DNA of 64,000 nt from Candidatus Pantoea edessiphila (GTDB taxonomy: Bacteria; Pseudomonadota; Gammaproteobacteria; Enterobacterales; Enterobacteriaceae): contig NZ_PDKS01000002.1 in assembly GCF_002933335.1 (NCBI RefSeq), positions 62,001 through 126,000 of the forward strand, in the 5' to 3' direction. The position numbers and the translations under genes are program-made. The first letter of the stretch is position 1. Each line of letters opens with the position of its first letter. The notes beneath the pieces were generated by a model, which was not told the DNA's origin, did no database searches, and saw only the letters and a program-made list of their open reading frames with translations. Shown piece after piece: positions 22,306-31,685 of the stretch.

Positions 22306-23586
22306 TTATTTTAGTAAAAAATCACGTAATATACTGAAATTTGGTTTCATTTTATATGATAACAAAGGAAGTTTGTTATGTTTTGTGAGTATATTAGGCA
22401 ATACTATTTCTCTTCCTAAAATATCTTGAACAATGTCTTGGAATTTAGCAAAATGTGCAGTTCCTATAAACAAACCATGTTCATCATCTTTTATGCTGTT
22501 TTTTAAGACATGCCAAGATATAGCAGAATGAGGATCTACAAGATATCCAATTTTATCTAATTCATTAATTGATGATCTAGTAACTTTATCTGATACTACA
22601 CCATAAGATAAACTTGTCAATTCCCAAGATTTTCTTTGAAAAAGTTCTTGAATTCTTGGCCAATTATTTGGGTTGCTTACATCCATAGCATTTGATATAG
22701 TCTGAATGGTTTTTTTGGGGTTCCATATACCATTATTGAGAAACCTAGGTACCGTATCATTTACGTTTGTAGCGGCTATAAAACGTTTAACAGGTAAACC
22801 TAGAGATCTTGCTAAAAGACCTGCAGTAAGATTTCCAAAATTTCCACTTGGCACTGATATTACCAACTGATTTCTTATTTCTTCAGAAAAATGTGCTACA
22901 GCTTCAAAATAATAACAAATCTGCGCTAAAAGACGGCAGATATTAATAGAATTTGCTGAATTTAAATTAAGTGATTTACTTAAATATTTATCATTAAATG
23001 CCATTTTTACTAATGATTGACAAGTATCAAAATCTCCTTCTAAAGCAATCGTCTCAATGTTTCCTCCTATTGTACAAAACAACTTTTCTTGTAAAGGACT
23101 AATCTTATGTTGAGGATATAAAATTACAACCCTTATATTTTCCATACCATAAAATGCATGAGATATTGCTGCTCCGGTATCACCGGAAGTTGCGGTTAAA
23201 ATAGTAGTGTGTTGATTATCACTAATACATGAAAGTATTTGTGATAAAAATCTACCACCAAAATCCTTAAACGCCAACGTAGGACCATGAAATAATTCTA
23301 AACAAGAAATATTACTAGATATGGATCTGATAGATATAGGAAAAGAGAACGCATTTTCAATACACATAAACAAATTATTTGGTGTTATCTCATTGCCTAT
23401 ATAGGTTGATAAAATTTTATAACTACGGCTTAAAAAATCTGTTTTCAATATACTGTTAATAGTATTAATATCTAATTTAGGAAGCTCAACTGGAAAAAAT
23501 AATCCTTGTTTAGATCCCAAACCTTTTTTAGTAGCTTGAATAAAGCTCACTTGCTCATTGTGGTCCTTAATATTATATAATCTCAT
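22306..23586 (-). CDS. thrC: Threonine synthase
   Basis: PLP enzyme converting O-phosphohomoserine to threonine. The 426-residue product matches E. coli (428). It starts RLYNIKDHNEQVSF. The PLP lysine lies in LAFKDFGGRF after LELFHGPT; the phosphate and cofactor loop is TATSGDTGAA, with SVPSGNFGNLTAG further on. It follows thrB by only 3 bp and is last of the thrABC operon. Confidence 0.97.
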   Translation of the reverse strand: MRLYNIKDHNEQVSFIQATKKGLGSKQGLFFPVELPKLDINTINSILKTDFLSRSYKILSTYIGNEITPNNLFMCIENAFSFPISIRSISSNISCLELFHGPTLAFKDFGGRFLSQILSCISDNQHTTILTATSGDTGAAISHAFYGMENIRVVILYPQHKISPLQEKLFCTIGGNIETIALEGDFDTCQSLVKMAFNDKYLSKSLNLNSANSINICRLLAQICYYFEAVAHFSEEIRNQLVISVPSGNFGNLTAGLLARSLGLPVKRFIAATNVNDTVPRFLNNGIWNPKKTIQTISNAMDVSNPNNWPRIQELFQRKSWELTSLSYGVVSDKVTRSSINELDKIGYLVDPHSAISWHVLKNSIKDDEHGLFIGTAHFAKFQDIVQDILGREIVLPNILTKHNKLPLLSYKMKPNFSILRDFLLK

Positions 23587-23589
23587 GTT

Positions 23590-24519
23590 TTATCCTAATT
23601 TTCGTGCACCTATATGATCTATGCGACAAATGTGCACAAAACCATGACTATTTTTTAGATAATTATTCTTGAGCCAAGATGCTACACTGTTTGCTTCGTT
23701 AATTTTTTCACAAATTGCAAATATTGTAGGACCAGATCCAGAAATTCCAGATACCATTGCACCTTTTGATTGAACGTTTCTTTGCATTTCTAAAAAATTA
23801 GGTAATAGTTTAATACGATAAGGTTCTGCTAGTATATCTTTCATTAGTTTTGTAGCTAAAGATGGTTGATTTGTATGACATGCGTGAATAAAACCAGATA
23901 GTAATTGACTATGTTTAATACAATCATTTTTACAATATTGTAAAGGTAAAATTGAACGTGCTTTAGCAGTAGATATCTTAATGCCAGGATATGCTACCAC
24001 CCATAACCAGTCATAAAAAAAAGGTATTTTCTGGCTTATAATATTATTTTCTTCCAAAATGAGCTGCATACCTCCTAAAAAACATGGTGCTACATTATCG
24101 TAATGTATACTATTGGAAATAAAACCTTCTAAATTTCCCATTAATAATAATAATTCATAGTTATTAAGTGGTTGACTAAAAAAATCATTAATCGCTACCA
24201 AACATGCTACTATTGAACAAGCACTAGATCCTAATCCTGATTCTATAGGCATATTTTTTTCCAATGTTATTTCTAACGGTGTCATAGAATTAATTTTTTT
24301 GCAAAAATATTGCCAACAATGGTAAATTATATTATCCCCTACACTAGGGGGTAAGTTGTTCGCAAAATTACCTGTGTTATTTAATTTAAAATGTTTAGCA
24401 GATCTTACAGTAACAAAATCACCTAAAAGTGATCCATCAATAGGTGCAAGAGCTACACCCAAAATATCAAATCCAACATTGATATTACCAATAGATGCCG
24501 GTGCATAAATTTTTACCAT
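23590..24519 (-). CDS. thrB: Homoserine kinase
   Basis: GHMP-family kinase phosphorylating homoserine for ThrC. 309 residues from the second of two adjacent ATGs (24519), which is better spaced from AGGAG than the first (24522). The ATP-binding loop is [13 protein letters not shown], the first motif [13 protein letters not shown] and the third [13 protein letters not shown]. It sits 17 bp after thrA and 3 bp before thrC in the thrABC operon. Confidence 0.97.
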
Positions 24520-24536
24520 CATTAGACTCCTAACTT

Positions 24537-26996
24537 TTAGGATAAAGTATGAAGTAAATCGGCAAATACACCAGCTGCTGTTACATCATTACCTGCTCCA
24601 TAACCTCTTAGTACTAACGGGATAGGTTGATAGTAACGACTATAAAATGCTAATGCGTTTTCACCATTTTTAACTTTATAAAGTGGGTTATCTTCTTTTA
24701 CTTCATCAATTTTTGCTGAACATATTCCGCCATTTTCTATGGTGCCAACAAATCTTAACGCTCTTCCATAATTTCGGGCTTTAGATACTCTATTTTTGAA
24801 TATGTCATCAAATCTAGATAAATATTGCATAAAATTTTCGATATTTTCAATATTATTGATATCATTTGGTAATATTGGTTCAATATTTATATCTTTTAAT
24901 TCTAAATGAAAACCTATTTCTCGTGCTATAATCAATAGTTTTCGAGCAACATCTATACCACTAAGATCTTCTCGAGGATCTGGTTCTGTAAAACCATTTT
25001 TACGAGCCATCTCTGTAGCTTCTGATATAGATAATCCTTCATCTAACTTCCCAAAAATAAAAGAAAGAGATCCAGATAAAATACCAGAAAATTTTATTAA
25101 TTGATCTCCGGAATTTAATAAATTTTTTAAGTTTTCAATCACTGGTAAACCAGCTCCAACATTAGTTTCATAAAGAAATTTGAGATTTGAATTATCAGCT
25201 ATAGCTCGTATTTTTTGATAGTAATGCCAAGAAGCAGTATTAGCTTTTTTATTTGATGTTACTATATGGAAACCATTAGATAAAAATTTTGTATATTGAT
25301 TAGCAATTTCCTGGCTAGCAGTACAGTCTATAATTACTGGATTAGACATATAATGTGTTTTGTGTAAACTAATCCATTCATTAATATTAAAAATTTTCCC
25401 GGTTTTATTTAGATTAGATTTCCAATCATTTAAATTTATACCTCCTAAATTAGTTAAAGCTTTTCGTGAATCAGCAATACCATAAATACATATCTTTATA
25501 TTTTTTTCTTTTTTTAAGAAATTTTGCTGTCTTTTGATTTGATTTAAAAGTGCATTCCCTACACCACCTACTCCAATTAAAAAAACTTCTATTGATTTAT
25601 AATTGATAAACAATGAATTATATATTACCTTTACACTATGTTTAATTTCATTATTATTCGTAACAATTGAAATTGAGCTTTTGGAATGATTATGTAAGAT
25701 TGTTTTAATATTGATATGATCATATGATAGATTTGGGAAAATTTTCCCATAAATCCCCTTGATGTTAGATATTTGATCTCCGATAATAGAAATTATTCCT
25801 AAATCTTTAGTGATTTCTAAAGAATCAAATAATTTGTTTTTTAGTTCAAATTCAAATTCTTTTATAAGGATTTGATGAACTAACTTTAAATCCTTTTCTG
25901 ATATGTAAAAATTAATGCTATTTCTTAAATAATTTTGTATACTCGAAAAAAGTAGGATATTACAATTTGATAAAATATTAACTATACGGGATATTGTATC
26001 TGACAATCGATATTGTAATGATGGCCCTGAAATATTCAGCATCGCTACATGACTTAAACTTACTATAGCTTTTGCTGATTTTTTGTTTTGTTGAATTTTT
26101 GTGTTGTTAATAAGAGTTCCAGTAGATTTAATATCATGAATATTTTTAATAAGGCAAGGTATATTAAAATCAGCAAAAAGTTTTATAGATTTTAAATCTA
26201 GTATTTTAGAACCAAAACAAATTAAATCTTTAGCTTCATTATGGGATATTGATTGCAATAGCTTTGCATTGGGTACTTGAGTTAAATCACATGAATATAT
26301 GCCATTTACATCAGTCCATATTTCACATATTTCTGCATTAAAACATGCAGATAATGCTGCGGCTGAATAATTAGAACCATGAGTTCCTAATAATATTATT
26401 TCACCTCTTTTATTACCAGCTATAGAACCAGCTACGAGAATAATATTATTTTTTTGAGTATTACTGTATATACTAATTCGTTTAATAGATTCAACAATGT
26501 CAATTTTAGATTCTACATCATTGCAATATACAAATAATGTTTTTACTGGATCTATTACAATAGTGTTATTGTTCCTTGATTTTAATATTTCCTCCATAAT
26601 AACAACAGAAATTTTTCCAACCATACATAAAATAGAAGTAAAATAATTATCTGTGCATTTTTTTAATAATGTTAGTCCATGTATCATTTTATTTATTTTA
26701 TTAAATTCTATTTTTATAAAATTTTTTAAATAACTAAAATTTAATGTTGGTTGAATATTAATTAAATCTAATAATAAACGGGAAAAACTATATTCCACTT
26801 CTTTAATACTCAACAAATTATCTTTATTAATAATGTTGTTTTTTATTATTTCTGATAAAAATGTTGTAATTTTAGTCGAAGAAGATAATACAGTGATAAC
26901 TTGTCCTTTTTGTGCATTTTGCTCTAAAATATCAGCTGCTCGAACTAAAAGGCTAGCATCTTCCATTGATGTTCCACCAAATTTCAGTACTCGCAT
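24537..26996 (-). CDS. thrA: Bifunctional aspartokinase I / homoserine dehydrogenase I, kinase half degenerate
   Basis: 819 residues from ATG 26996 ([10 protein letters not shown], with AGGAGAG upstream), as in E. coli (820). The C-terminal homoserine dehydrogenase half is intact: NAD site [49 protein letters not shown] and [14 protein letters not shown]. The N-terminal aspartokinase half keeps KFGGTS but loses other signature residues. RGEKMS becomes MVGKIS (Glu to Gly near residue 127), GRNGSDYSA becomes GTHGSNYSA (near 209), TCDPRQ becomes SCDLTQ, and AKVLHPRTI becomes SKILDLKSI (near 267). The two ACT-type regulatory segments have also lost the QSSSE and QGSSE motifs. I infer that homoserine dehydrogenase is active and that aspartokinase activity and threonine feedback are doubtful. 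Confidence 0.95.
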
Positions 26997-27456
26997 GATG
27001 CAAACTCTCCTAAGTACCAAGAACAAACATTAAGAAATATATCGTTCAAGTAAGTGATTGTTCCTTTTTTATGTATGACTGCTTAATACTACTTCTGCAG
27101 TAACAGCGATGCTAATAATGAAGGTGTTTATATACAAATATTTAATTTGTTTACAATATTTTTTTAGCTAAAATTAGCTGGAACATTATTTAATGTATAA
27201 TATTTACTTTACTAGCTTTACTAAAGATATATTATGATATTTTAAATACCATAAAATTCTATCTATAATATTTTAGAATTGTTAAATCGATAATATTAAA
27301 TATTTAAATACATCATGATGATTATATAAAAAATATTAGCAAACAAATTGATTTTTTAGGAATATTATATATAAATTTTTCATAAAAAATCATACCAAAT
27401 GGATCAATTTACTCCCTAATATTATATATAAATTGATAGATAAATAGCGGAGTTTA
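26997..27456. other. thrA upstream region without recognisable leader or gene
   Basis: 460 bp between slt and thrA. In E. coli this interval contains trpR, several other genes and the thrL attenuator. I see no leader peptide rich in Thr/Ile codons and no GC-rich attenuator hairpin before thrA, and no trpR-like reading. Only A/T-rich sequence and a 17-bp direct repeat (27361-27377, 27418-27434) are present. Confidence 0.5.
27361..27434. repeat. 17-bp direct repeat downstream of slt
   Basis: The sequence AATATTATATATAAATT occurs at 27361-27377 and again at 27418-27434, 57 bp apart. It is composed of A/T only, so slippage or chance in a low-complexity background is a reasonable explanation. Confidence 0.5.
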
Positions 27457-31365: not shown

Positions 31366-31452
31366 GCGAGGATGGCGAAATTGGTAAACGCGTCAGTTTC
31401 AGGTACTGGTGTCTTTTCTATAGACATGAGGGTTCAAATCCCTCTCTTCGCA
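31366..31452 (+). tRNA. leuV: tRNA-Leu (anticodon CAG)
   Basis: An 87-nt cloverleaf with a class II long variable arm. The acceptor GCGAGGA pairs with TCTTCGC plus discriminator A. The anticodon loop TTCAGGT gives CAG. The variable arm pairs TGTC with GACA and the T-arm is GAGGG-TTCAAAT-CCCTC. The 3' CCA is not encoded (the sequence continues CAA). It corresponds to the E. coli leuQPV copies located near holD; a single copy remains here. Confidence 0.95.
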
Positions 31453-31599
31453 CAATTTTTCTAATGATAATTTTGTATACAAATAGAATTACTTAAGGTT
31501 TTTATAAGCTATTCAATATGATCGTTTATTAGATACTCAACATTAATAAATTAAATAAGAAAATGATACATATAAAAATATTATTTCAAGTAAACAGTG

Positions 31600-31685
31600 T
31601 GCCGAAGGCCGGAATCGAACCGGCAAGCACTAACTAGTGCGGTTAATTTTGAATCAACTGCGTATACCTGTTTCGCCACTTCGGC
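31600..31685 (-). tRNA. leuX: tRNA-Leu (anticodon CAA)
   Basis: An 86-nt class II tRNA on the minus strand. The acceptor GCCGAAG pairs with CTTCGGC plus discriminator A, and the anticodon loop TTCAAAA gives CAA. The variable arm is GCAC-TAGTTA-GTGC and the T-arm GCCGG-TTCGATT-CCGGC. The 3' CCA is not encoded. It matches E. coli leuX and converges with tRNA-Leu(CAG), 147 bp away. Confidence 0.95.

Follow-up and report, generated by a model that had tools for sequence, protein, structure and literature searches.

Very probable loss of aspartokinase catalysis in ThrA, with homoserine dehydrogenase motifs retained, in a reduced Candidatus Pantoea edessiphila genome that keeps LysC

Does the bifunctional aspartokinase I/homoserine dehydrogenase I (ThrA) of Candidatus Pantoea edessiphila still work as an aspartokinase and, if it does not, which enzyme supplies aspartyl phosphate? 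The question is raised by a 64,000-nucleotide stretch of contig NZ_PDKS01000002.1 (the window), which belongs to an 841-kb genome in 11 contigs with a GC content of 25-32 percent in 4-kb blocks, values that might point to an insect symbiont. A sequence-only reading of the window had described a ThrA in one uninterrupted frame whose kinase half had lost several signature residues, and thrA is indeed a single unbroken frame on the minus strand (Table 1). Homology to ThrA extends over the full length of the protein, as the NCBIfam equivalog PRK09436 matches residues 1-819 with 946.5 bits (cut-off 726), and the kinase half scores 261.7 bits with the NCBI aspartokinase profile, above its cut-off of 208.7. 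An AlphaFold model was poor (mean pLDDT 54.4, from two alignment rows), and its best Foldseek matches, aspartokinases whose TM-scores over full-length chains do not exceed about 0.49, speak for homology only. Compared with E. coli, the gene, the thrABC order, the length and the homoserine dehydrogenase (HSD) motifs are the same, but the ThrA of the window is without the aspartate contacts, the DPR and HPRT motifs, the ACT residues and the upstream attenuator. Elsewhere in the window, two tRNA genes lie close together on opposite strands (31366-31685).

Table 1. Features of the thr locus, of the ThrA kinase half and of lysC (positions in the window unless a contig or locus is given; substitutions in E. 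coli ThrA numbering, the protein's own numbering being higher by one from F190 on)
Feature	Position	Strand	Basis and remarks
thrA, bifunctional aspartokinase I/homoserine dehydrogenase I	24537..26996	-	819 aa, ATG at 26996, stop at 24537
Aspartokinase catalytic domain, profile-recognisable, active site gone	26109..26996	-	Pfam PF00696 (AA_kinase) 99.6 bits; residue tables
E127G, aspartate alpha-amino contact lost (LysC Glu119)	26616..26618	-	Alignment; role from PMC5481828 (excerpt)
F190S (own residue 191), substrate contact lost (LysC Phe184)	26424..26426	-	Alignment; contact tables (excerpts)
R204T and N205H (own 205-206), aspartate alpha-carboxylate contact lost (LysC Arg198)	26379..26384	-	Alignment; contact tables (excerpts)
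D208N (own 209), matching Asp202, a residue listed for both the aspartate site and the ADP site	26370..26372	-	Alignment; contact tables (excerpts)
DPR to DLT: P237L, R238T (own 238-239); LysC R232 is an ADP contact	26280..26285	-	Alignment; contact tables (excerpts)
HPRT to DLKS (own 267-270)	26187..26198	-	Alignment
ACT regulatory region, eroded	25605..26108	-	Pfam ACT_9 37.2 bits; residue comparison
HSD domain, motif-intact	24540..25598	-	Pfam PF00742 (Homoserine_dh) 155.9 bits, PF03447 (NAD_binding_3) 72.8 bits
thrB, homoserine kinase, next operon gene	23590..24522	-	310 aa; named by sequence and gene order
thrC, threonine synthase	22306..23586	-	426 aa; named by sequence and gene order
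Region upstream of thrA, no recognisable threonine attenuator	26997..27456	-	Rfam at gathering score
lysC (outside the window)	C5:145962-147290; L001 994-2334	- in L001	446-aa protein; aspartokinase profile search

The substrate contacts of E. coli LysC, 15 positions in all, were compiled from the tables of section 3.3 of PMC8092979 and from PMC5481828, both in excerpt. According to the excerpt of PMC5481828, Glu119 and Arg198 of LysC form salt bridges with aspartate, Glu119 with its amino and Arg198 with its carboxylate group, and these two residues align with Glu127 and Arg204 of ThrA. Seven of the 15 listed positions in the ThrA of the window are unlike E. coli ThrA, and the conserved active-site residues E127, F190, R204 and D208 are all among those replaced. 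Codon positions bore out each loss that had been named before (the Glu of RGE, the Asp of GSDYSA, GR(N), DPR and VLHPRT), and the change from Phe to Ser at the protein's own residue 191 adds one that had been missed. Counting that of the window, the ThrA proteins of five species of the genus (G000, G001, G002, G004, and G005) all carry Gly in place of Glu127, either Ser or Ala at position 190, and either Thr or Asn at position 204, with seven to eight of the listed contacts differing in each; position 208 is occupied by Asn, Asp or Glu. Because four related species have the same kind of loss, sequencing error is very unlikely to be its cause. The sixth genus member, G003, differs at only two listed contacts (K263R and V264I) and keeps the core. 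With the charged contacts Glu127 and Arg204 both gone, the kinase half would be unable to bind aspartate productively, and it is very probably catalytically dead. Some nucleotide binding may persist, because each of the five species retains K5, S38, T44, S207, and T227, and three of them K263 as well.

The other half of the protein is motif-intact: the HSD motifs that we compared are retained, as the sequence-only reading had stated. We then considered the positions that are invariant in the ThrA of 33 small genomes without LysC (see below) and counted each position in each of the five species as one cell. All 135 cells at the 27 HSD positions are kept, as are 24 of 45 cells at the nine kinase positions that contact a ligand and 120 of 150 at the 30 remaining kinase positions. 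The losses at invariant kinase positions thus exceed what chance would produce, while the difference between ligand-contacting and other kinase sites in the share kept in all five species (4/9 vs. 18/30) was not significant (p = 0.46). No HSD other than ThrA was found in the genome. The HSD portion of E. coli ThrA can be active as an isolated fragment. Within residues 381-480 the sole in-frame internal start is a TTG at codon 462. An AAAGG precedes it by about 14 bases, which is more than the usual spacing, and separate translation of the HSD half from this codon could conceivably occur.

Aspartyl phosphate had been suggested to come from LysC or MetL encoded elsewhere in the genome. The first part of this suggestion holds, since the search for another aspartokinase found LysC outside the window, with 13 of the 15 listed contacts as in E. 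coli LysC; the second does not, as no metL was found, only one HSD being present genome-wide. The two contacts that differ (R232H and V258I) lie at positions that are also variable in ThrA kinases that are their genome's only aspartokinase, and in the other five members of the genus LysC deviates at one listed contact each. Five amino-acid-kinase genes are present in the genome, namely ThrA, LysC, and three others that we read, by length only, as ArgB, ArgA, and PyrH; LysC is a second aspartokinase gene that has the catalytic residues. LysC scores above the aspartokinase cut-off in all six genus genomes, all of which also carry asd and lysA. Because its contacts are kept and these two genes accompany it, LysC should be able to supply aspartyl phosphate in all six genomes and, as the one remaining aspartokinase, would feed it to both lysine and threonine.

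To place the locus in a wider context, we searched 392 genomes of the family for ThrA and scanned 47 genomes no larger than 1.8 Mb with the aspartokinase profile; another 31 small genomes that matched ThrA strongly (E < 1e-100) were left out, all of them from genera that already had a representative. Of the 47, ten carry LysC and a full-length ThrA, 33 have a full-length ThrA without LysC, and four contain kinase remnants. We defined eight core kinase sites (K5, G7, G8, E127, F190, R204, S207, and D208) and found them altered relative to E. coli in eight of the ten genomes with LysC, in none of the 33 without it and in none of 23 references, which comprised E. coli and 22 genomes of 2.5-5.5 Mb presumed to be free-living. 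Fisher's test, which ignores relatedness, gives p = 3e-7 for core alteration against LysC presence. Outside the genus, the alterations are E127S, F190L, and R204S in G163, E127Q and F190L in G124, and a replaced KFGGTS loop with T44F and D228N in G152; G124 is the mildest case, and without it the count is 7/10. G152 is a 0.7-Mb genome that keeps LysC, and its ThrA kinase half scores 146.5 bits, under the profile cut-off. Both G003 and G018 have LysC together with an intact ThrA kinase core, so the presence of LysC alone does not bring about the loss. In another 26 genomes of 0.5-3.6 Mb, five (2.7-3.6 Mb) have LysC and a high-scoring ThrA kinase, as judged by profile score only, and no full-length ThrA was found in the small genomes among these 26.

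On a tree of the HSD columns, built by a quick method that left 27 of 63 inner branches open, four changes are needed and the lesions differ between lineages, which implies about four independently affected lineages in the sample: the five species that include the one studied here, and three others. G003 is not joined with the other five genus members on this tree (support 86), and it is for this reason likely but not certain that the genus underwent a single loss after the divergence of G003. An independent-pairs test yielded three pairs on supported branches, of which two to three agree with the association and none opposes it (median p = 0.25); with so few pairs, the tree-controlled test cannot reach significance.

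How the kinase half decayed can be read from its rates. With the HSD tree fixed, the stem branch leading to the five species carries 0.575 changes per site in the kinase half vs. 0.124 in the HSD half, and within the five species the kinase/HSD ratio is 1.75. The ratio ranges from 0.84 to 1.75 in six small-genome groups that keep an intact kinase and have no LysC (g69, 1.75; g116, 1.72; G192 with G129, 1.49; g11, 1.38; G258, G159, and G177, 1.11; g126, 0.84), is 0.84 and 0.95 in two large-genome groups, and runs from 0.92 to 2.58 on single end branches of intact small genomes; in G152 it reaches 3.76, a strong relaxation. Tree lengths for the five species are 0.93 for the LysC catalytic domain, 1.36 for the ThrA kinase and 0.89 for HSD, so that the ThrA kinase evolves 1.46 times as fast as the LysC catalytic domain, and those of the ACT regions are 1.83 (LysC) and 2.47 (ThrA). 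A Nei-Gojobori count on eight of the ten possible pairings within the five species shows that the two halves are not equally constrained: kinase dN is 1.25-2.0 times HSD dN, compared with 0.94-1.50 in six intact-kinase pairs, and dN/dS is 0.29-0.46 for the kinase half (0.23-0.32 in the intact pairs) and 0.17-0.25 for HSD. Because the stem branch is so much longer in the kinase half and later rates are only mildly raised, catalysis would have been lost in a burst, the remaining domain staying under constraint that is mildly relaxed. Given such dN/dS values and a ratio at the top of the intact range, decay of the kinase half is not simply unconstrained.

We consider it likely that the ThrA of the window works as a homoserine dehydrogenase only, that redundancy with LysC allowed the loss, and that the dead half is kept as a scaffold. 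Redundancy would have let the catalytic residues go on the branch to the five species, and the N-terminal half would persist as the bearer of the translation start, having still to fold and probably helping the enzyme to assemble; it is the rates that argue for this scaffold role. The earlier proposal of a monofunctional homoserine dehydrogenase is consistent with the lost kinase residues and the intact HSD motifs, but a kinase half that does not decay freely adds a qualification to it. The same rates bear on the most serious alternative, that the kinase half is a neutral relic, functionless and unconstrained, kept only for the open frame of HSD. Such a relic would fit a half that holds the start codon, for which the TTG at 462 is the only in-frame alternative in the interval searched, as well as the short in-frame deletions in the kinase half of G002 and the kinase half of G152, which evolves 3.8 times as fast as HSD. 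Nevertheless, we regard it as rather unlikely, given the kinase dN/dS in the eight pairs, the 120 of 150 cells kept at otherwise invariant non-ligand sites, and a rate merely 1.46 times that of the LysC catalytic domain in the same species.

Could the kinase half instead still be active, weakly or with a changed specificity, say for another acid such as malate? Changing Glu119 of LysC to Gly, Ala, Ser or Cys raises kcat/Km for malate by 200-fold at most, according to the excerpt of PMC5481828; the equivalent residue is Gly in the ThrA of the window, and Lys5 and several nucleotide-side residues are retained. However, malate too would need the arginine that contacts the alpha-carboxylate, whose place is taken by Thr or Asn throughout the five species, and the mixture of Asn, Asp, and Glu at position 208 resembles relaxation and not a new specificity, which makes such an activity improbable. 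We give even less credit to the idea that the ThrA kinase functions with non-canonical residues and that LysC is incidental: sole-aspartokinase ThrA kinases do vary at R238, K263, and V264, yet the eight core sites are invariant in 33 of 33 small genomes without LysC, and this explanation is highly improbable. Our preferred reading is thus that of a homoserine dehydrogenase carrying a catalytically dead scaffold.

The kinase losses are accompanied by losses of regulatory sequence. The sequence-only reading had both ACT segments losing the QSSSE/QGSSE residues, which is right for segment 2, where AIAQGSSERS is replaced and the Gln lost, but only in part for segment 1, where ITQSSSEYS has become SIQNYLRNS and the Gln is retained. 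ACT erosion is seen in the five species and also in several of the 33 intact-kinase genomes (e.g., G139, G340, and G121), and hence is not specific to kinase loss. Release from threonine feedback, as had been proposed, is plausible from the replaced ACT residues but is not tied to the loss of the kinase. At the Rfam gathering score, the six genus genomes showed neither a Thr_leader at thrA nor a lysine riboswitch at lysC, and the thrA locus of G018 likewise had no threonine leader; both E. coli controls were recovered, the Thr_leader with 121 bits. D340 and E346 of LysC form salt bridges with lysine, according to the excerpt of PMC8092979. The LysC of the window's genome has Gly and Lys at these two positions and Pro instead of Ser338; D340 and E346 are both kept in G001, G003, G004, and G005, and G002 keeps D340 and has Lys at 346. 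The LysC of the window's genome, its only aspartokinase with an intact active site, may therefore be lysine-insensitive. Release from threonine feedback would here be joined by release from lysine feedback. Taken together, these changes lead us to expect that in this species the common pathway is controlled weakly or not at all by its end products.

In the excerpt of PMC1885841, lysC and metL are given as absent in Buchnera, Blochmannia floridanus and Wigglesworthia. Genomes in which ThrA is the only aspartokinase resemble the one studied here in being reduced and, in several cases, in their eroded ACT region, but the 33 genomes without LysC keep the kinase core, whereas the genus keeps LysC and five of its six members have lost the ThrA kinase. 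Monofunctional HSDs with solved structures (1ebf) are likewise without aspartokinase activity, which for ThrA is a prediction; unlike them, the ThrA of the window still carries a full-length dead kinase domain. Among the matches listed in a search of the open-access literature, subscription papers being outside its scope, there was no description of a ThrA that has lost kinase residues in a genome that keeps LysC. In principle, a loss of this kind is what redundancy is ordinarily expected to bring about as a genome shrinks, but it has clear comparative support. It has a practical side: because the ThrA of the window scores above the NCBI cut-offs for ThrA as well as for aspartokinase, it would be entered as an aspartokinase in annotation and pathway tables, and half-dead fusion enzymes may be miscounted. 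The losses, confined in our sample to genomes with LysC, amount to a natural experiment on whether the kinase domain plays a structural role in HSD, and also on the way in which reduced genomes shed regulation.

A more general rule can be put forward tentatively, although we think it somewhat more doubtful than not: where LysC is kept, the ThrA kinase loses catalysis by point changes and stays as an undeletable, selected scaffold; where there is no paralogue, the kinase is retained; and where homoserine has become dispensable, HSD is discarded. If this were true, lineages would split one bifunctional enzyme in either direction. The kinase remnants in G010, G108, G147, and G151, none of which has a full ThrA, share with the ThrA of the window a reduced genome and the abandonment of one half of the fusion, but it is the opposite half that was lost, by truncation or fragmentation and not by substitutions in place. 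The G010 frame (305 aa, L071 from 2002) comprises the aspartokinase catalytic domain only, with mostly intact motifs and neither ACT nor HSD; the profile search found no other aspartokinase in that genome, and the frame looks like a minimal, regulator-free aspartokinase. In G147 (L074 from 1038), a 490-aa ThrA kinase frame with its motifs is open and the HSD half is fragmented, although according to an excerpt of the genome paper aspartyl-4-phosphate has to come from Buchnera. Finally, G034, G076, G109, and G209 (0.8-1.6 Mb) have aspartokinase frames of 465-493 aa that score 210-230 bits and no full-length ThrA; because these scores resemble those of MetL-like frames of 812-831 aa in larger genomes, they may be the kinase halves of MetL.
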